A stretch of DNA of 64,000 nt, taken from a bacterium (lineage in GTDB: Bacteria > Actinomycetota > Acidimicrobiia > Spongiisociales > ZC4RG35). Positions 21,579 to 38,392 of the stretch are shown here, piece by piece. The stretch covers positions 62,001 to 126,000 of the forward strand of contig JAHEJW010000004.1 of NCBI GenBank assembly GCA_024638655.1. Reading direction: 5' to 3'. The translations under genes and the position numbers were made by a program. Positions within the stretch are counted from its first letter, which is position 1, and the number at the start of each line of letters is the position of its first letter. The notes beneath the pieces were generated by a model that had not been told where the DNA came from, searched no databases, and worked only from the letters and a program-made list of their open reading frames with translations.

Positions 21579-22079
21579 ATGGAGTCCGTCCCGCTCACCT
21601 GGGAAGAGGTTGCCCGTGTCTACGGACGGAAGATCTACAACTTCGCCTACCGCCTCACCGGTAACTCCGCCGACGCCCACGATCTCGTCCAAGAAGTCCT
21701 CCTCCGGGTTCGGAAGGGTCTGGCCAACTATCAGCCCGGGAGCTTCGAAGGTTGGTTGTGGCGGATCACCCGCAACGCCTTCCTCGACGAGGTCAGGAAG
21801 CAAAAGAGGCGGCCGACGGCACCGATTCCCGACGAGATCGATCGATGGGACGCAGCCACAACGGAGTCGGCCGATCTCGAGTTCGACCGGATCTCGCTCG
21901 GCGACGACATCCAGAAGGCACTCCTCGAGCTACCCATCGAATTCCGCGAGGCCGTTGTTCTGTGTGATGTCGTCGGCCTGTCATATGAGGAGATCGCCAG
22001 TGCGGTCGCCGTGCCGGTGGGGACTGTCAGATCGCGCATCCACAGGGGGAGGAAGCAATTGAGGGAGTTGCTCGAGTGA
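21579..22079 (+). CDS. ECF RNA polymerase sigma factor (SigE-like)
   Basis: A 166-residue sigma-70 factor with only regions 2 and 4. Region 2 holds YNFAYRLTGNSADAHDLVQE, SFEGWLWRITRNAFLDEVRK and a basic tail. Region 4 holds LPIEFREAVVLCDVVGLSYE followed by the helix-turn-helix VPVGTVRSRIHRGRKQLREL. It directs transcription of an envelope- or oxidative-stress regulon. Its stop overlaps the GTG of the anti-sigma gene (GTGA), so the two are coupled. A matching ECF promoter precedes it. Confidence 0.95.
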   Translation: MESVPLTWEEVARVYGRKIYNFAYRLTGNSADAHDLVQEVLLRVRKGLANYQPGSFEGWLWRITRNAFLDEVRKQKRRPTAPIPDEIDRWDAATTESADLEFDRISLGDDIQKALLELPIEFREAVVLCDVVGLSYEEIASAVAVPVGTVRSRIHRGRKQLRELLE

Positions 22080-22495
22080 CCCACCCGTCCGAATCGATCA
22101 GCGCATATCTGGACGGGGAGCTGACTGCGGGCGAGCGTGGCGAGCTGGGACAGCACATTTCCACCTGCGGCCGATGCGCGGCAGATCTGGAGGATTTGCA
22201 GCGAGTACGGGCCGCGGTGAGGGCATTGCCGGTACTCGAGATGCCCGATGACGTTTACGGCCAGCTGCGTGAGGACGATCGAGTTGTGCCGCTCCACCGC
22301 AATCGTGGCGTCTGGGTGGGCGCAGCCGCGGCCGTGGTAGCACTCGTGATCGCGGTCGCCGCCCTGGTGACTCCACCGGCATCATCGGTGACGATCGACC
22401 AGCTGAGCAGCCGGTTTGGCGCCCGCGTGTCCCTCGATCCCGCTTTCGGCCCGGCGAAGGTGATCGTCCCCGACTTTGCGGAGCTGCACGAGTGA
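22076..22495 (+). CDS. Zinc-containing anti-sigma factor (ZAS, RseA-like), membrane-bound
   Basis: A 139-residue protein. The cytosolic N-terminal anti-sigma domain has the ZAS motif HISTCGRC (HxxxCxxC). One membrane segment (VWVGAAAAVVALVIAVAALV, about residues 80-99) leads to a short extracytoplasmic tail. ZAS proteins sequester a partner ECF sigma and release it on oxidation or proteolysis. The GTG at 22076 overlaps the sigma stop, and its own stop overlaps the next GTG, so three genes are translationally coupled. Confidence 0.93.
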   Translation: MTHPSESISAYLDGELTAGERGELGQHISTCGRCAADLEDLQRVRAAVRALPVLEMPDDVYGQLREDDRVVPLHRNRGVWVGAAAAVVALVIAVAALVTPPASSVTIDQLSSRFGARVSLDPAFGPAKVIVPDFAELHE

Positions 22496-23415
22496 GACGA
22501 CTCTCGACTCTGGTGCTGGCAGTGATCGTGTTGCCCGCCACGTCGGCGGGAGCGACAGAGCTTGACGATCTGCTCGAGCAAAGCCGGGAGTCCGCCTACA
22601 GCGCCGAGCAGGCGATCAGCTGTTCCACTCCGGATGGCGTCCAGGATGCCGTCGTTCGGATCGCACAGAGCGGGGGTGAGATCACCGTCGGCTCTGCCGT
22701 GGGTGATGACGTGGAAGTCAAAAGCGGCGACGGCGGTTGGGTTCTGTCCCGTCACGGTGGGGTCGTCTCATCGACGTCTGTGGTGGGGAAGGAGGCCGAA
22801 GTCGACCCGCTCTACATCGTTGAAGACCTTGGCGAGCTCAGCGCCCTCGGTCGGGATGCGACCGCATTTCGGCTGGTCCGTGGTGGAGTGATTCGGGCGG
22901 AGCTCGTTCTCGATGACGACACCGGTGCAATGCTCGCCACTACTACCTTCACCGAGGATGGCGAGACCTATTGCCAACGGCGTTTCATCTCATTCGACCC
23001 GACGGATCCTGGCTTGACCGCGACAGAGACGATTGATGTCGATGAGCTCCAATTGGCATCTGTCGGCAACGGCAGCCTTCCGGATGAGATCGTCGGTTTC
23101 CAGCGTCTCGACCTCTATGAGGATCCTCTCGGTTTCCGCTTCGCCTACTACTCCGACGGGTTCTTCTCTTTCGCGGTCTTCGAGACTCCCACCACCGTGA
23201 GCCTCGATGAAGGAGGCTTGGTGGAAATGGGTGGGTTCCAATACGGGCGCTCCTTTTCCCCCGGCCAAGCCACCTATGCGTGGGAAGCCAGGGCCGGCGG
23301 CATGGCCCTCGTCGGCGACTTGCCCCCCGACCTCCACGATGAGGTGCTGGCCGCTCTACCCAAACCTGAGGCACCAAACTTCTTCCGACGTATCTGGCGC
23401 ACCCTCTTCGGATAA
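22492..23415 (+). CDS. Secreted RseB/MucB-like regulator of the anti-sigma factor
   Basis: A 307-residue exported protein with signal peptide (MRRLSTLVLAVIVLPATSAGA). The N-terminal domain has the LolA-like layout of MucB/RseB (VEVKSGDGGWVLSRHGGVVS, RDATAFRLVRGGVIRAELVL, DDTGAMLATTTF, a cross-strand RRFISF). The smaller C-terminal domain (DEIVGFQRLDLYEDPLGFRF, FSFAVFETP, YAWEARAGGMALVGDLPPD) fits the second RseB domain. In proteobacteria RseB protects RseA from proteolysis, and the coupled position after the anti-sigma gene supports the same role. Sequence identity to proteobacterial RseB is low, so this rests on architecture and context. Confidence 0.7.
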   Translation: MRRLSTLVLAVIVLPATSAGATELDDLLEQSRESAYSAEQAISCSTPDGVQDAVVRIAQSGGEITVGSAVGDDVEVKSGDGGWVLSRHGGVVSSTSVVGKEAEVDPLYIVEDLGELSALGRDATAFRLVRGGVIRAELVLDDDTGAMLATTTFTEDGETYCQRRFISFDPTDPGLTATETIDVDELQLASVGNGSLPDEIVGFQRLDLYEDPLGFRFAYYSDGFFSFAVFETPTTVSLDEGGLVEMGGFQYGRSFSPGQATYAWEARAGGMALVGDLPPDLHDEVLAALPKPEAPNFFRRIWRTLFG

Positions 23416-23442: not shown

Positions 23443-23901
23443 TCAGTTCCCCGCGAGTGCTTTCTCGTACGCAGGGAACGGGCGGGCCACCTTCAGCTGG
23501 TTTGAGGCGACAACGTCGGAAATGACCCCTGACTCGTCGAGGAAGTAGGTAGTCCGCTCTGCGTATCCGAAATCCTCGTTGAACGTGTCATAGCGCCGGG
23601 CTACGCCACCGTGCGGCCAGAAATCGGAGAGGATGTCGAACTCGAATCCGTTGTCGGCCGCCCACCGGGCGTTGGAGGCCGTTGTGTCACACGTGATGAC
23701 GACCACCCGGGAGCCTGCATTGTCGAAGACGTGGGAATTGTCCCTGATCTCGCAGAGCTCACCTTCGCATGTGCTGGTGAAAGCAAACGGGATGAAGACC
23801 ACGGCAGCTTTCCCGCCGAGGAGATCGTCGAGTGTCACCGTCTCGCGACGCTGGTTCCGAAGTTCGAAATCCGGTGCCTTCTCGCCGACCTGAAGGGTCA
23901 T
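23443..23901 (-). CDS. Peroxiredoxin (AhpC/TSA family, AhpE/PrxQ-like)
   Basis: A 152-residue thiol peroxidase. The peroxidatic site is PFAFTSTCEGELCEIRDN with Cys45 and a second Cys50, the CxxxxC spacing of PrxQ/BCP enzymes in an AhpE-like sequence context. WPHGGVARRYDTFNEDFGYA and RTTYFLDESGVI follow as expected. It reduces peroxides using thioredoxin or mycoredoxin. The ATG at 23901 is preceded by GGGGAG. It lies downstream of the DUF2342 and htrA genes on the same strand and convergent with the ECF sigma operon, consistent with an oxidative or envelope-stress neighbourhood. Confidence 0.92.
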   Translation of the reverse strand: MTLQVGEKAPDFELRNQRRETVTLDDLLGGKAAVVFIPFAFTSTCEGELCEIRDNSHVFDNAGSRVVVITCDTTASNARWAADNGFEFDILSDFWPHGGVARRYDTFNEDFGYAERTTYFLDESGVISDVVASNQLKVARPFPAYEKALAGN

Positions 23902-23938: not shown

Positions 23939-25012
23939 TCACGGCGACCACCCGTCGAGGAGAACCCTCGCCGCCCAGGCGGTGGGGTCGCGGAGCTCGG
24001 ATGCGGTGGGCATACGGGAGGGGTCGGCCCAGAGGCTCTGCAGGGCGTCGTCTCCGTAGCGGCGCTCGACCTCTTCGTTGAACTCAACACCGAGGATGGT
24101 CATCTCGACCGGCACGGGCCCGACGCCGATCGGCGGTTGAACACCGCTGTCACGACGGGACGCATCTCTTTCGGACGTTATGCGGTCGAAGTTGGGGGCG
24201 ATCTCGGCGATGGCGCGCCGGGCGAGCAGCCGGGCGCATCCGGTGACCGCTCCGAGGAATGCCTCGAGCTCGGCTTTTGGCGCCTCTGCCTCCTCACCGC
24301 CGATGAGGCTGTCGATGCCGCCCGCCTCTTCGATGGCCCTTTCAATGCTGGAAGGATCGGTTCCCGCCGTCATCAGCCCGCTCAACTTGGTCGGATCGAT
24401 CTGGGCAGCCTCTGCATATGCTCCCACCAGATCTCCCAGGTGATCGTGGAGCCACGGCAGCTGGGATAGGGCTCGAAACGCCACCTCGTTGGCAACCACC
24501 CAGAGATGCACTTCGCGACGATCGACCCCGCTCACCTGGAGTGCCTCGATGTTGGGGACGATCAACGAGATCTCGCCCGGATGATCCGGTGGCAAGCCCG
24601 AGTCGAACCCGGCGACCACCCAGGTGGCGAGCGACCCGACGAGGGAGCCGGCCTGGAGCCCGACTATCGCCGGCGCCATCTGGGCGAATAGGGGAGCCGC
24701 CGGCCCATCGCCACCGACCGACGCTCCAAAGGGTTCGACCAGCGTGCCGTACGACTCGAGGTTCTTTTCGGCCCAGCCGCGTCTATCGAGGGGCAACACG
24801 TCGGGTGCAGCCTGGATGCGGAAGGGGGCGACTCCCTCGAGTCGGTATTCGGCGAGTCGGGCCAGCTCCCGGAACTCGTCGGCCGCCCAAGGCTCGATCG
24901 GCTCACGGTCCCCTGACAGGTGCCTGGCTACCTCCAGGCCGAGTTTCCAATTGATCGGTCCCGGCTGGTTGAAAAGCTCGAAAAGCTGTGAGAACAGGTC
25001 GTCGTCACTCAT
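23939..25012 (-). CDS. DUF2342 (zincin-like, F420-associated) protein with degenerate HExxH motif
   Basis: A 357-residue protein recognisable as the actinobacterial DUF2342 family by WKLGLEVARHL, GRELARLAEYR-like helices, LVEPFGASVGG and the block LWVVANEVAFRALSQLPWL. In the family this block normally reads LHEvaHr...vPWL, with HExxH binding zinc. Here it is NEVAF (24476-24490): both His ligands are gone (Asn and Phe) while the Glu and the following PWL are kept. It is probably a non-catalytic homologue. Its ATG overlaps the htrA stop (ATGA), so it is coupled to the protease gene. Confidence 0.85.
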   Translation of the reverse strand: MSDDDLFSQLFELFNQPGPINWKLGLEVARHLSGDREPIEPWAADEFRELARLAEYRLEGVAPFRIQAAPDVLPLDRRGWAEKNLESYGTLVEPFGASVGGDGPAAPLFAQMAPAIVGLQAGSLVGSLATWVVAGFDSGLPPDHPGEISLIVPNIEALQVSGVDRREVHLWVVANEVAFRALSQLPWLHDHLGDLVGAYAEAAQIDPTKLSGLMTAGTDPSSIERAIEEAGGIDSLIGGEEAEAPKAELEAFLGAVTGCARLLARRAIAEIAPNFDRITSERDASRRDSGVQPPIGVGPVPVEMTILGVEFNEEVERRYGDDALQSLWADPSRMPTASELRDPTAWAARVLLDGWSP

Positions 25013-26184
25013 GGGTTCAACTCCTCGAGCTCGATGTCGACAACCAACTGGTCATTGGATCGGAGGATACGAGCCTGGACTACGTCTCCGGCGCGCAGCC
25101 CGCGGAGCGTGGAGAGCAACTCATCGATGGTGTTGACGGGATTGCCCGCCAGCTCTGTGATGACATCGTTGACCTGGCCACCTGCGAGGTCATATGAAGA
25201 GCCTGGCTCGACGTTGCCTATGCCGACACCTACCGGGAACTCGGCTCCATTCTGTTCGGCCCATACCGTGTCACCGCTGATTCCAAGGCGAGCATGACGC
25301 ACACGCCCATCTCGGATCAGGTCATTTGCTACGCCAATGGCGAGGTCCACCGGGATGGCGAACCCGAGGCCCTCCGCTCCGACGTCCGAGACTGCAATGG
25401 CTGTGGTGATGCCGATGAGTCGGCCCCTGGCGTCGACCAATGCGCCGCCACTAGAGCCTGGTGCGATCGGGGCGTCAGTCTGTACCAGCCCGTAGAGAGT
25501 TTGACCCGGGGTGACGGTCAAGGAACGATCCAGGGCGCTGATGATCCCGGATGTCACTGTTGGTCCCCCCTCCAAACCCAACGGGTTTCCCACCGCAACC
25601 GCAGGCTCGCCGATCGACAAGAACTGCGACGACCCGACTTCGATAGGTGTCAGATCGGCTCGATCGACCCGGAGGACTGCGACGTCGGTCACGGGATCGG
25701 CCCCGATCAGCTCGGCGGGAAATCGAGAACCGTCGGAGAAGATGACGAACAGGTCACCGGCGCCACCTGCTACATGGTCGTTGGTGATGATGTAGCCGTC
25801 TTCTCCGTAGATCACCCCGCTGCCGCTTCCTGCGCTCAGAAACGTGCTGGCCTCGATGAACACGGTCGACGGGATCACCCTCTCCGCAACACCCGTCGCG
25901 GTGATCGTGTCGCCGAATGTTGGTGGCGGTCCCGTGGGAGGCGGCACCGTCAAGACCGGCGGGGGCGGCAGGGTTGGCGGTGTCGGCTCTTCGAAGACAC
26001 CGGTGAAGCCAAGGACGGCGAAAGTGACTCCGGTCCCGAGGAGGACACCGCCCAGGATTCCCATCACAAGGGTCCATGGGTCGGTCCTCCGCTCGACTGT
26101 GGTCTGGACGACCGGGCCGGGACTGGGGCGGCGGGCCGGCTGTGGATCCTCCCTGAAGGGGGGACGTGGCCCGAAATCTGTCAT
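25009..26184 (-). CDS. HtrA/DegP-type trypsin-like serine protease with PDZ domain
   Basis: A 391-residue membrane-anchored protease. A Pro-rich cytosolic tail, one membrane segment (LVMGILGGVLLGTGVTFAVL, about 39-58) and a Pro-rich linker precede the protease domain, which has an intact triad: His137 in TNDHV, Asp167 in VTDVAVL and Ser245 in PGSSGGAL. A C-terminal PDZ domain (about 295-385: GVGIGNVEPGSSYDLAGGQV, NDVITELAGNPVNTIDEL) recognises substrates. It degrades misfolded envelope proteins and is often in an ECF/SigE regulon. The downstream DUF2342 gene overlaps it. No clear ECF promoter was found ahead of it. Confidence 0.95.
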   Translation of the reverse strand: MTDFGPRPPFREDPQPARRPSPGPVVQTTVERRTDPWTLVMGILGGVLLGTGVTFAVLGFTGVFEEPTPPTLPPPPVLTVPPPTGPPPTFGDTITATGVAERVIPSTVFIEASTFLSAGSGSGVIYGEDGYIITNDHVAGGAGDLFVIFSDGSRFPAELIGADPVTDVAVLRVDRADLTPIEVGSSQFLSIGEPAVAVGNPLGLEGGPTVTSGIISALDRSLTVTPGQTLYGLVQTDAPIAPGSSGGALVDARGRLIGITTAIAVSDVGAEGLGFAIPVDLAIGVANDLIRDGRVRHARLGISGDTVWAEQNGAEFPVGVGIGNVEPGSSYDLAGGQVNDVITELAGNPVNTIDELLSTLRGLRAGDVVQARILRSNDQLVVDIELEELNP

Positions 26185-26198
26185 ATCCTGAGGATTCT

Positions 26199-26633
26199 AT
26201 GGACAGGACCAGCCAAACGATCAGAGTCAGGGTGGGCTCCGAGCCGATCGATCCGGGTCTCCTATTCAGCGAGGTGGGCCGACCCGACTCTGGAGCGACT
26301 GTGGTTTTCACTGGAACTGTCCGGGATCATTCGTCGGGCAAGGCCGAGGTCTCCCATCTCGAGTACGAGGTCTACGCCGAGATGGTGGTACCGAAGATCG
26401 AGGCGATAGTCGAAGAGGCGGTCGCGAAGTGGCCCGTGTTGAGCGCTGTCGTGGAGCATCGGGAGGGGACTGTCCCGCTGGGTGAAGTCTCGGTCGCTGT
26501 CGCCATCTCATGTGCCCATCGCTCGGACGCGTTCGAGGCGGCCCGTTTCGTAATCGACGAGCTGAAACAGCGAGCGCCGATCTGGAAGAAGGAGCACTGG
26601 CCCGGTGGTGCCGAGTGGAGCCGGGGAAGCTGA
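26199..26633 (+). CDS. moaE: Molybdopterin synthase catalytic subunit MoaE
   Basis: A 144-residue protein with the MoaE motifs ATVVFTGTVRDHSSGKAEV, LEYEVYAEMVVPKIE, VEHREGTVPLGEVSVAVA, HRSDAFEAARFVIDELKQ and the C-terminal APIWKKE, whose Lys residues act in catalysis. MoaE transfers sulphur from MoaD thiocarboxylate to precursor Z to make molybdopterin. The ATG at 26199 is chosen; the start is 15 bases from the divergent htrA ATG. No other moa or moe gene is in the window. Confidence 0.93.
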   Translation: MDRTSQTIRVRVGSEPIDPGLLFSEVGRPDSGATVVFTGTVRDHSSGKAEVSHLEYEVYAEMVVPKIEAIVEEAVAKWPVLSAVVEHREGTVPLGEVSVAVAISCAHRSDAFEAARFVIDELKQRAPIWKKEHWPGGAEWSRGS

Positions 26634-35553: not shown

Positions 35554-36570
35554 ATGCCGTCCACAGAAGCCACAGGAAGCTCGAAATGGCCCGTCTATCT
35601 GATCGGGGCTCTCTTTGCGCTCGGGGTCCTGGGGACTGCTCTGTGGAATGTCGAGCTCCCATATCTCGCATACTCGCCGGGTCAAGTCTCAGACGCTGCA
35701 GATGCGATTGTGGTTCGGGACGTAGAGGTTTTCCCGCCCGAGGGTGAGCTGTTGATGCTCACGGTCATAGCTCCCGAGGTGAATGTCTTCGAGGCCCTGA
35801 TAGCCGGCTTCGACCCTACGATCGACCTGGTTCGAAGAGAGGCCGTGCGAAGGGTCGGTGAGACCGACGAGGAGTACCGGAACCGCGTCCTACAGCAGAT
35901 GGACGATTCGAACTTCAGATCTGTGGCGGTGGCCCTCGGCTACCTCGGAATCGAGCTGATGCCGACCGAAGTGGTGATCAACGAGTTCGTCGAGGGTGTG
36001 CCGGCACAGTCGGTCCTCGAATTGGGGGACACCATCAAGGCGGTCAACGGGCTCCCGGTGACGTCGGCGACAGAGATCCGGCCGCTGATCGAAGGTCTCG
36101 AGCCGGGAGACACCATCGAGGTGACGGTCGTTCGGAATGGGACCGACTCGACTGTCGTCGTCGAGTTGGCGGAGAGAGAGGACGAAGTTGGAGCCGTGAT
36201 GATCGGGGTGACACTTGGCGAGCTGACAGGCCCTCCGTTTCCACTCGAGGTCAGTGCCGGTGACGTCGGCGGCCCTTCGGCGGGATTGATGCACACTCTG
36301 GCGATCATCGACATACTCACCGAAGGTGAGCTGACCAAAGGGAACGTGGTTGCCGGCACTGGGACGATCAGAATGGACGGCACCGTCGGCAACATTGGGG
36401 GAGTCAGACAGAAAGTCGTGGCAGCCGAGGCTGCCGGTGCGGACTACATGCTGGTGCCGGAAGGCAACTATCAGACGGCTCTGACCGCCAAATACGACGC
36501 GATCCAGATCGTCCCCGTGGCGACTCTCGCCGATGCCATTGGGTTTCTGGAGGGCCTGGACGAAGCCTGA
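35554..36570 (+). CDS. PDZ domain and Lon-type (S16) protease domain membrane protein (YlbL-like)
   Basis: A 338-residue protein. An N-terminal membrane segment (WPVYLIGALFALGVLGTALW) anchors an extracytoplasmic region that opens LPYLAYSPGQVSDAADAI. A PDZ domain (about 130-210: VINEFVEGVPAQSVLELGDT, IKAVNGLPVTSATEI) precedes a Lon C-terminal proteolytic domain with Ser in GDVGGPSAGLMH and Lys in GGVRQKVVAAEAAGA. The Ser-Lys dyad is intact. In many actinobacteria this gene neighbours UPF0182 and DUF2342 genes (Rv3193c-Rv3195 in M. tuberculosis), and a UPF0182 gene lies 2.5 kb downstream here. Confidence 0.93.
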   Translation: MPSTEATGSSKWPVYLIGALFALGVLGTALWNVELPYLAYSPGQVSDAADAIVVRDVEVFPPEGELLMLTVIAPEVNVFEALIAGFDPTIDLVRREAVRRVGETDEEYRNRVLQQMDDSNFRSVAVALGYLGIELMPTEVVINEFVEGVPAQSVLELGDTIKAVNGLPVTSATEIRPLIEGLEPGDTIEVTVVRNGTDSTVVVELAEREDEVGAVMIGVTLGELTGPPFPLEVSAGDVGGPSAGLMHTLAIIDILTEGELTKGNVVAGTGTIRMDGTVGNIGGVRQKVVAAEAAGADYMLVPEGNYQTALTAKYDAIQIVPVATLADAIGFLEGLDEA

Positions 36571-36643: not shown

Positions 36644-38392
36644 ATGGCTTCCGAGATAACTCCTGGCGACATCCGCCGCGCCGAATTCCGAACCACCCTG
36701 AGGGGCTTCGATCGTGAACAGGTCGTGAGCTTTCTCGGCTCGATCGCCGAGCAGGTGGAGCGGCTCCAGGCGAAGGTGGAGACGCTGGCGGCGCAAGCGA
36801 CGGAGACCGCGAGTCGCGACCTGGAGGAAGAGTTCGACAAGATTGGACACGAGGTCAGTTCGATCCTTCAAACGGCCAGGGAAGCCGCCGATTCGATGAG
36901 AGAGCGGGCGGCTCTCGATGCCGCCCGTTGGCGGAGTGAGGCCATGGAGGAAGCCGAGGCCAACCGTAAGGAGGCTGCCTCAGACGCCGAGGCTCTTCGT
37001 CGCGATGCATGGGCCGCCGGCTCGGAACTGCTCAGGCAGTCCGCAGCGGAAGCCAAGAGCATGCGCGAAGAGGCAGAGCGCGACGTCCTCACGATTCAGG
37101 GCGAAGCGGAGCGCGAGTCTCATCGTCTCACGTCAGGTGCGAGGCGAGAGGCCGAGGACACTCTCAGAAACGCCCGGATGGAAGCCGAGAAGATGACCAC
37201 CGACGCTGCCAAGCGGCGTGACGAGATCATCGATTCAGCCAACAGGCAGGCGGCGGCGGCTCAGGAGCGCACTCGCGCTTTGGAGCAGAGGCGAGACGAG
37301 TTGATGGACGAGCTGGAGAATGTCCGCACAACCCTGAGCCGCCTCGAAGGCAGTCTCGACGAGAAACGGGAGAGCCTGGAGCTCTCCAAAGCGGACAGCA
37401 CCACCGTTCGAGTCGTCCCGTCTGCAAAGCAGCCAATCGACCCGGACCAATGGGAACCGGGCGAAACTGTGCGCGTTGTCCGGTCCGAGGACGAGCCTCC
37501 CGAGCACGTCTTGGACATAGATCTTCCCGACCAGGACATCGAGCCCGGGATGAGCATCGAACCCATTCCCGTGACCCGACCAAGCGTCGAGGTGGTGCGG
37601 CCACAAGAGAGTCACCGGCCCCAACGAGCCGGGACCGCCGACCAGGCCGAGCCTGTAGTGGAGCCCGAAGGAGCTGAGGAGCCTGGGCCGATCCAAGAGC
37701 ATTCGCCGACCCTCGAAGAAGAGCCAAGCCAACCGGCCGACTCGACAGCAGGAGATGACGACGACGTACATGCTCTGTTCGAGTCGCTCCGCGTTGCTGG
37801 AGATGTCGCCGAGGTCAGACCGAACGACTTGGCGACTGCTGCAGTCGAGGACACCCAGCCTGAGCCCCTGGCGGCCGAGAAGTCTGACGAGCCGGCCGAA
37901 GACCTGTCCCGCGATTGGATCGAGGTCCGCGGAGCCCGTCTTCTTCCGATAACGAATCGCGCCTTACGGGGGGCGAAGAAGTCGCTGACCGAGCTTCAGA
38001 ACATCGCCCTTGACGGTTTGCGGACCGATGACGACTGGCGGCCGGACGAAGCCGTCATCCGCGAGACGCTTCAGGCGGAATTGATTGCCGTGTGGGCGGA
38101 GAGTTTCGCGGCAGGTCATGCGGTCGCCGAGGAGATGACCGGTTCGAAGATCAAGCGCCCGCCAAATCCGGCAGCCGATTCGGTGCCACTGCTTGCCCAG
38201 GCCCTGGCTTCAGCCGTCTCCTCGGCCCTCGATGAATCCGACGAAGGCCCCAGGGCAAGGCAGTCGGCCGTGTCACGCGTGTTCCGGGTCTGGAGGACGG
38301 ACGAGGCCGAGCGCAGAATCCGAGAGTTGGCGATCCGTTCTTACCAGCTCGGTGTGGAGCGATCTGTAGAGGTGCACACACCTGTGGCTTGA
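36644..38392 (+). CDS. DivIVA-domain coiled-coil protein with long acidic C-terminal region
   Basis: A 582-residue protein. Residues 1-60 form a DivIVA N-terminal domain (ITPGDIRRAEFRTTLRGFDREQVVSFLGSI) that in the family binds curved membrane. A long heptad-rich coiled coil (about 60-245, with many Glu/Ala/Arg repeats such as EAERDVLTIQGEAERESHRL) follows, then a disordered Pro/Glu-rich segment (260-400) and a helical C-terminal domain (about 420-580). It is much longer than Bacillus DivIVA (about 165 residues). DivIVA proteins organise polar growth and division; in actinobacteria Wag31 guides cell-wall synthesis. Another Wag31 may exist elsewhere in the genome. Confidence 0.88.
   Translation: MASEITPGDIRRAEFRTTLRGFDREQVVSFLGSIAEQVERLQAKVETLAAQATETASRDLEEEFDKIGHEVSSILQTAREAADSMRERAALDAARWRSEAMEEAEANRKEAASDAEALRRDAWAAGSELLRQSAAEAKSMREEAERDVLTIQGEAERESHRLTSGARREAEDTLRNARMEAEKMTTDAAKRRDEIIDSANRQAAAAQERTRALEQRRDELMDELENVRTTLSRLEGSLDEKRESLELSKADSTTVRVVPSAKQPIDPDQWEPGETVRVVRSEDEPPEHVLDIDLPDQDIEPGMSIEPIPVTRPSVEVVRPQESHRPQRAGTADQAEPVVEPEGAEEPGPIQEHSPTLEEEPSQPADSTAGDDDDVHALFESLRVAGDVAEVRPNDLATAAVEDTQPEPLAAEKSDEPAEDLSRDWIEVRGARLLPITNRALRGAKKSLTELQNIALDGLRTDDDWRPDEAVIRETLQAELIAVWAESFAAGHAVAEEMTGSKIKRPPNPAADSVPLLAQALASAVSSALDESDEGPRARQSAVSRVFRVWRTDEAERRIRELAIRSYQLGVERSVEVHTPVA

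Follow-up and report, generated by a model that had tools for sequence, protein, structure and literature searches.

Substitution of the HExxH zinc motif in the DUF2342 (Zincin_2) family has already been published at the family level. In a survey of zincins, 43% of DUF2342 proteins carried HExxH, replacement of His by Arg was enriched across zincins, and the Glu often became Gln, Ala, or Leu (PMC3650047). According to the same survey, it is not known what inactive zincins do; it gives no phylogeny for the DUF2342 losses. Comparable cases occur in other peptidase families: FtsHi1-5, the inactive ADAMs, and alpha-MPP have lost zinc ligands and kept the fold, and partners are known for some of them (PMC11266112). 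DUF2342 is unmentioned in that review of pseudo-metallopeptidases.

Within DUF2342, transposon insertions in HVO_2770, an F420-type protein with conserved zinc residues, were found in hypochlorite-tolerant Haloferax (PMC6267482). MAB_3501/Rv3195, of the ylbL-linked Actinomycetes type (TIGR03624/PF10103), was captured by a beta-lactone probe (PMC12101465). The latter protein is probably of the R-E-x-x-H type, and its capture might mean that some proteins of the lineage retain a residual chemistry. The solved structure 3CMN (Caur0242 of Chloroflexus aurantiacus) has HEMTH together with a Glu at the likely third-ligand position. Literature searches for TIGR03624 and TIGR03883, and for 3CMN as a zincin, found nothing in the papers covered. 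Here, we analyze a DUF2342 gene within a 64,000-nucleotide stretch of DNA, referred to below as the window. An earlier note, made from the letters of this DNA, had described a change of HExxH to NEVAF in the encoded protein.

Results and Discussion

The protein encoded by the window gene (Table 1) matches the PF10103 profile over its full 357 amino acids, with an E value of 1.4e-45 and 156.6 bits against a cut-off of 25. In profile searches, it scores 160.2 for NCBIfam TIGR03624, above the cut-off of 136.05, and 111.2 for TIGR03883 (DUF2342_F420), below the cut-off of 171.35. The codons AAC GAG GTG GCG TTT, read from 24490 to 24476 on the minus strand, encode Asn175-Glu-Val-Ala-Phe179, exactly at the coordinates and with the letters first reported. 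3CMN is the only significant PDB sequence match, and phmmer aligns LWVVANEVAFRALSQLPWL of the window protein with LWITLHEMTHAFEFEAYPWV of 3CMN. The flanking LW and PW are conserved between the two proteins, and the alignment is unambiguous. It shows that both His residues are replaced, by Asn and Phe, and that the Glu and PW are retained, in agreement with the earlier reading of the site. The likely third zinc ligand, assigned by alignment, is the Glu of IEGYGN in 3CMN and of LLEGHGH in intact paralogues; this position is Thr257 in the window protein, a loss that adds to what had been noticed before. The window protein therefore has NEVAF and Thr257 where 3CMN has HEMTH and Glu.

Table 1. Coordinates of the features discussed, in window positions
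Feature	Position	Strand	Evidence or remark
DUF2342/Zincin_2 pseudo-metallopeptidase gene, 357 aa (very likely assignment)	23939-25012	-	PF10103, TIGR03624, AF2 pLDDT 91.2, 3cmn fold match
NEVAF, residues 175-179, in place of HExxH	24476-24490	-	3CMN and orthologue alignments
Glu176, catalytic-Glu equivalent, retained in 129/132 lineage proteins	24485-24487	-	census
Thr257 at inferred third-ligand position (Glu in 3CMN and intact relatives)	24242-24244	-	alignment
HtrA/DegP-type serine protease, Trypsin_2 + PDZ	25009-26184	-	stop overlaps pseudo-zincin start (ATGA)
Peroxiredoxin (AhpC-TSA), next same-strand gene	23443-23901	-	PF00578, E 2.7e-29
MoaE, divergent neighbor; start may lie downstream of longest-ORF start	26166-26633	+	PF02391, E 1.1e-35
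ECF-type sigma factor, convergent operon	21579-22079	+	PF04542, PF08281
zf-HC2 anti-sigma factor, one membrane segment	22076-22495	+	PF13490, E 3.8e-8; hydropathy
Exported protein, possibly RseB/MucB-like	22492-23415	+	synteny; L066 orthologue vs PF03888
YlbL-like protein	35554-36570	+	own-genome match, E 1.2e-41, 34% identity

A scan of the whole 357 amino acids found neither HExxH nor HxxEH elsewhere, and a relocated HExxH is ruled out. His occurs only at positions 31, 144, 169, 189, and 191. The protein thus lacks the HExxH motif of active clan MA zincins and, as judged from the alignment, has no Glu, Asp, or His as a third ligand. A metal might still be held by Glu176 together with His189 or His191 and support a changed metallo-activity, as the invariance of Glu176 and His191 in the core clade described below would allow. 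However, none of the three inferred ligands is retained, their replacements vary by clade, and 3CMN has Tyr at the position of His191, and we consider metal binding of this kind highly improbable. We infer that the protein is unable to hydrolyze peptides by the zinc mechanism.

The altered motif is shared by close relatives. A search of 60 relatives gave a match in 58, in some to a paralogue only; those relatives that bear names are metagenome-assembled Acidimicrobiia. NE(V/A)(A/S)F is common to 13 proteins from 12 genomes and seven genera, the window included, with identities to the window protein of 66-76%. Across these core-clade proteins, N175, E176, and F179 are invariant, and the third-ligand position is Thr or Gly. 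Because further genomes of seven genera share the motif at this position, NEVAF is not a local error, and local mutation and assembly or sequencing error are both ruled out. Pairwise dN/dS values within the core clade range from 0.066 to 0.21, with some dS values near saturation, and indicate purifying selection. An AlphaFold2 model built with 37 orthologues has a confident zincin-2 fold (pLDDT 91.2, pTM 0.90), for which Foldseek returns 3cmn as the sole significant PDB fold match (E 1.3e-8, probability 1.00, TM 0.64/0.76). The window protein thus combines ligand loss, purifying selection, and a retained fold, and is very likely a pseudo-peptidase. The alignment of close relatives, the dN/dS estimate, and the structure prediction, all suggested as checks in the earlier note, bear out its view of a maintained pseudo-protease rather than a decaying gene.

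A second DUF2342 gene is present in the same genome, roughly 37 kb ahead of the window (G000:C71:24159-25124; L111:5097-6140). Its product is about 22% identical to the window protein, is of the TIGR03883 type (279.8 versus a cut-off of 171.35), and, unlike the window protein, retains HELTH and the Glu. A search for such an intact copy had also been proposed, and one exists. In relatives, this paralogue sits downstream of an ECF-type sigma factor gene, with a small ORF in between in L233. Redundancy with the intact paralogue could have relaxed the constraint on the window gene and left it to decay slowly. The many independent ligand losses described below would suit such a course, as would the several same-family genomes that have the distant paralogue only or no match, most of which are incomplete assemblies. 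The dN/dS of about 0.1 already disfavors decay, however, and the 357 amino acids contain no internal stops. Moreover, an orthologue of the window gene was found in most relatives searched, and positions occupied by Glu, Gly, Pro, Trp, or Arg are near-invariant. We therefore regard slow decay as very unlikely and retain the reading of a maintained pseudo-peptidase.

To place the window protein among its relatives, orthologues and paralogues were taken from the order, class, and phylum, and trees were built with the motif columns excluded. The protein falls in a 94-protein lineage (TIGR03624) that is separate from the paralogues with 99% SH-aLRT and divides into Actinomycetes and Acidimicrobiia branches. 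Outside the lineage are 3CMN and 23 paralogues, all with intact zinc sites (23/23 paralogues). R-E-x-x-H is found in 17/17 sampled proteins of the Actinomycetes branch, to which the ylbL-linked type belongs, and these proteins also lack a zinc ligand. The window protein differs from the ylbL-linked type in lacking both His residues and the inferred Glu (N..F..T), in its length (357 versus about 410-490 amino acids), and in being encoded in an htrA operon rather than divergently from ylbL.

An enlarged tree of 155 proteins, which includes other Acidimicrobiia orders, contains 132 distinct proteins of the lineage. HExxH is kept in 39 of the 132 and is accompanied by a Glu or Asp third ligand in 28, whereas Glu at the catalytic position is kept in 129. 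This tree requires a minimum of 21 changes at the first His, 12 at the second, 9 at the third-ligand position, and 2 at the catalytic Glu. Treated as a unit, HExxH needs 17 changes under parsimony; if regain is forbidden, the number of losses is 24. The zinc site was lost about twenty separate times in the actinobacterial TIGR03624 lineage, a figure that is an estimate because some tree branches are poorly supported. Loss of HExxH is the rule across the whole lineage and therefore not special to the window gene.

The Glu behaves differently from the metal ligands. It is retained in 97% of the 93 lineage proteins that lack at least one His, and E176 is within the top eight most conserved columns of these proteins. 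The lineage agrees with the zincins surveyed in PMC3650047 in its use of Arg but differs in its Glu, which is often replaced there and almost never here. FtsHi2 (NEAAM) and FtsHi4 (REAAV) retain the Glu as the window protein does (PMC11266112). None of the orthologues sampled from the window protein's own family has the third ligand. Its HEVAH and HETAH members have HExxH without the third ligand, as does an HEAMH protein that neighbors them in the tree. In this family, the histidines probably went after the Glu ligand, since the third ligand is absent throughout the sample and a few members still have HExxH.

We also considered whether an Arg that replaces His supplies the charge of the lost zinc. 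Raw counts pair it with a third-ligand Glu or Asp (31/34 versus 11/37), but such compensation is unsupported by independent pairs and amounts to a hint only. Among the most degraded active sites are those of L212 and L213, which have MERIT and an Ala at the third-ligand position; L212 still adjoins htrA and moaE.

The near-invariance of the Glu could mean that the old site was repurposed for other chemistry, for example that of a non-zinc hydrolase or transferase acting through the conserved Glu and Arg. R349 and R286 are strongly conserved. In addition, the sole clade in which the catalytic Glu has become Asn (L102, L103, L104, and L108, with RNGVH or RNGIH) has Gln in place of the usually conserved Arg286. 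This co-change would fit a contact between Glu176 and Arg286, but it is a single event limited to one clade. The beta-lactone capture of MAB_3501/Rv3195 (PMC12101465) points in the same direction but may be unspecific, and no Ser, Cys, or Tyr is found among the polar positions conserved in more than 80% of the lineage. New chemistry at the site is thus quite unlikely. Rather, about twenty losses of zinc ligands with the Glu retained suggest that the window protein probably has a binding or regulatory function and is not a zinc protease. It is likely that the Glu has been kept for a nonhydrolytic role. The conserved job would be to hold a protein or peptide in the groove of the former active site, where Glu176 would contribute to binding or to structure. 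This job probably predates ligand loss and would already be present in members with intact sites.

The gene neighborhood offers some guidance as to where such binding might be used. The stop codon of htrA and the start codon of the DUF2342 gene overlap by 4 nt (ATGA, 25009-25012), which confirms the coupling claimed earlier. In the window's own order, htrA lies directly upstream in 60/73 loci and is lacking there in 13/73, a divergent moaE is upstream in 55/56, and a peroxiredoxin gene follows the DUF2342 gene in 42/71. In other Acidimicrobiia orders, htrA is directly upstream in 3/40 loci and is mostly further off or absent. The neighbor in Actinomycetes is a divergent ylbL (PDZ + Lon_C), detected in 13/16, and several Acidimicrobiia without htrA at the locus carry ylbL beside moaE. 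Taken across groups, these neighbors indicate that the shared feature is a PDZ-domain membrane protease and not HtrA itself. The window also encodes, at a distance, a YlbL-like homologue of the PDZ protease that adjoins the orthologue in Actinomycetes. We take the ylbL-linked Actinomycetes loci to correspond to the Rv3194c/Rv3195 arrangement, going by the YlbL and ABC1-kinase neighbors rather than by a named record. In the window and in many relatives, the htrA-DUF2342-peroxiredoxin unit converges on an operon of ECF sigma factor, zf-HC2 anti-sigma factor, and exported-protein genes.

The earlier note had suggested that the protein is a scaffold or regulator of HtrA. In this scenario, it would directly scaffold, inhibit, or activate the adjacent HtrA, and loss of peptidase activity would have followed from the partnership. 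The gene overlap and the frequent adjacency are in its favor. In addition, HExxH loss tracks htrA adjacency in the own order (49/60 htrA-adjacent proteins versus 4/13 others; Fisher p 6e-4), although these are raw counts that reduce to 3-5 phylogenetically independent contrasts and are then not significant. Intact HEVTH members also adjoin htrA, and HExxH is lost without htrA in YETAH and NEVTH proteins and in all sampled Actinomycetes, where YlbL is the neighbor. By hydropathy, HtrA has a single N-terminal membrane segment (approximately residues 39-58), preceded by a 38-residue cytosolic tail and followed by the protease and PDZ domains. The same analysis found no signal peptide or export signal in the pseudo-zincin, whose most hydrophobic stretch (residues 115-134, KD 1.6) falls in a helix within the zincin-2 domain. 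The HtrA protease domain is therefore predicted to lie outside the membrane, which probably separates it from the pseudo-zincin and makes direct action on that domain unlikely. Adjacency remains as support for the suggestion, and overall we consider a direct partnership with HtrA unlikely.

On balance, we favor a conserved cytosolic pseudo-metallopeptidase with a groove-binding job and, as a weaker component, a link to envelope proteostasis beside the PDZ proteases HtrA and/or YlbL and the sigma/anti-sigma genes. The link with PDZ proteases is a best guess from gene context, and a functional tie to one of them is put forward tentatively. Any contact would have to involve a tail that lies in the cytosol, or a substrate common to both proteins; the exported protease domain of HtrA would be out of reach. 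A bolder and rather doubtful extension is that the entire lineage, the mycobacterial ylbL-linked type included, consists of pseudo-enzymes in which Glu-dependent groove binding serves YlbL/HtrA and zinc proteolysis was never essential. If true, this would explain about twenty ligand losses with the Glu almost never lost.

If the favored explanation is right, the labels "putative hydrolase" and "zincin-like metallopeptidase" mislead for most proteins of the TIGR03624 lineage. The lineage also offers a natural experiment, in that about twenty replicate losses of the metal site with the Glu retained separate the need for binding from the need for metal. What a "catalytic" residue does in a pseudo-enzyme thereby becomes directly testable. 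The window places one such maintained pseudo-peptidase amid htrA, sigma factor, and peroxiredoxin stress genes.

Several smaller observations concern the surrounding genes. The sigma, anti-sigma, and possibly RseB-like genes at 21579-23415 have overlapping ends and resemble an envelope-stress module; the L066 orthologue of the exported protein has a weak PF03888 match (E 0.0039, below the cut-off). A DivIVA-like ORF with a long coiled coil (36644-38392) follows the YlbL-like gene in the window. At two loci from which htrA is absent, the neighboring ORF encodes 351 amino acids without a Pfam match (L095) or a 178-amino-acid MoaE (L067). One relative has two complete fadD-moaE-htrA-DUF2342-(sigma operon) loci, L063 and L083 (G012:C19 and G012:C23), and both encode NE(V/A)AF.
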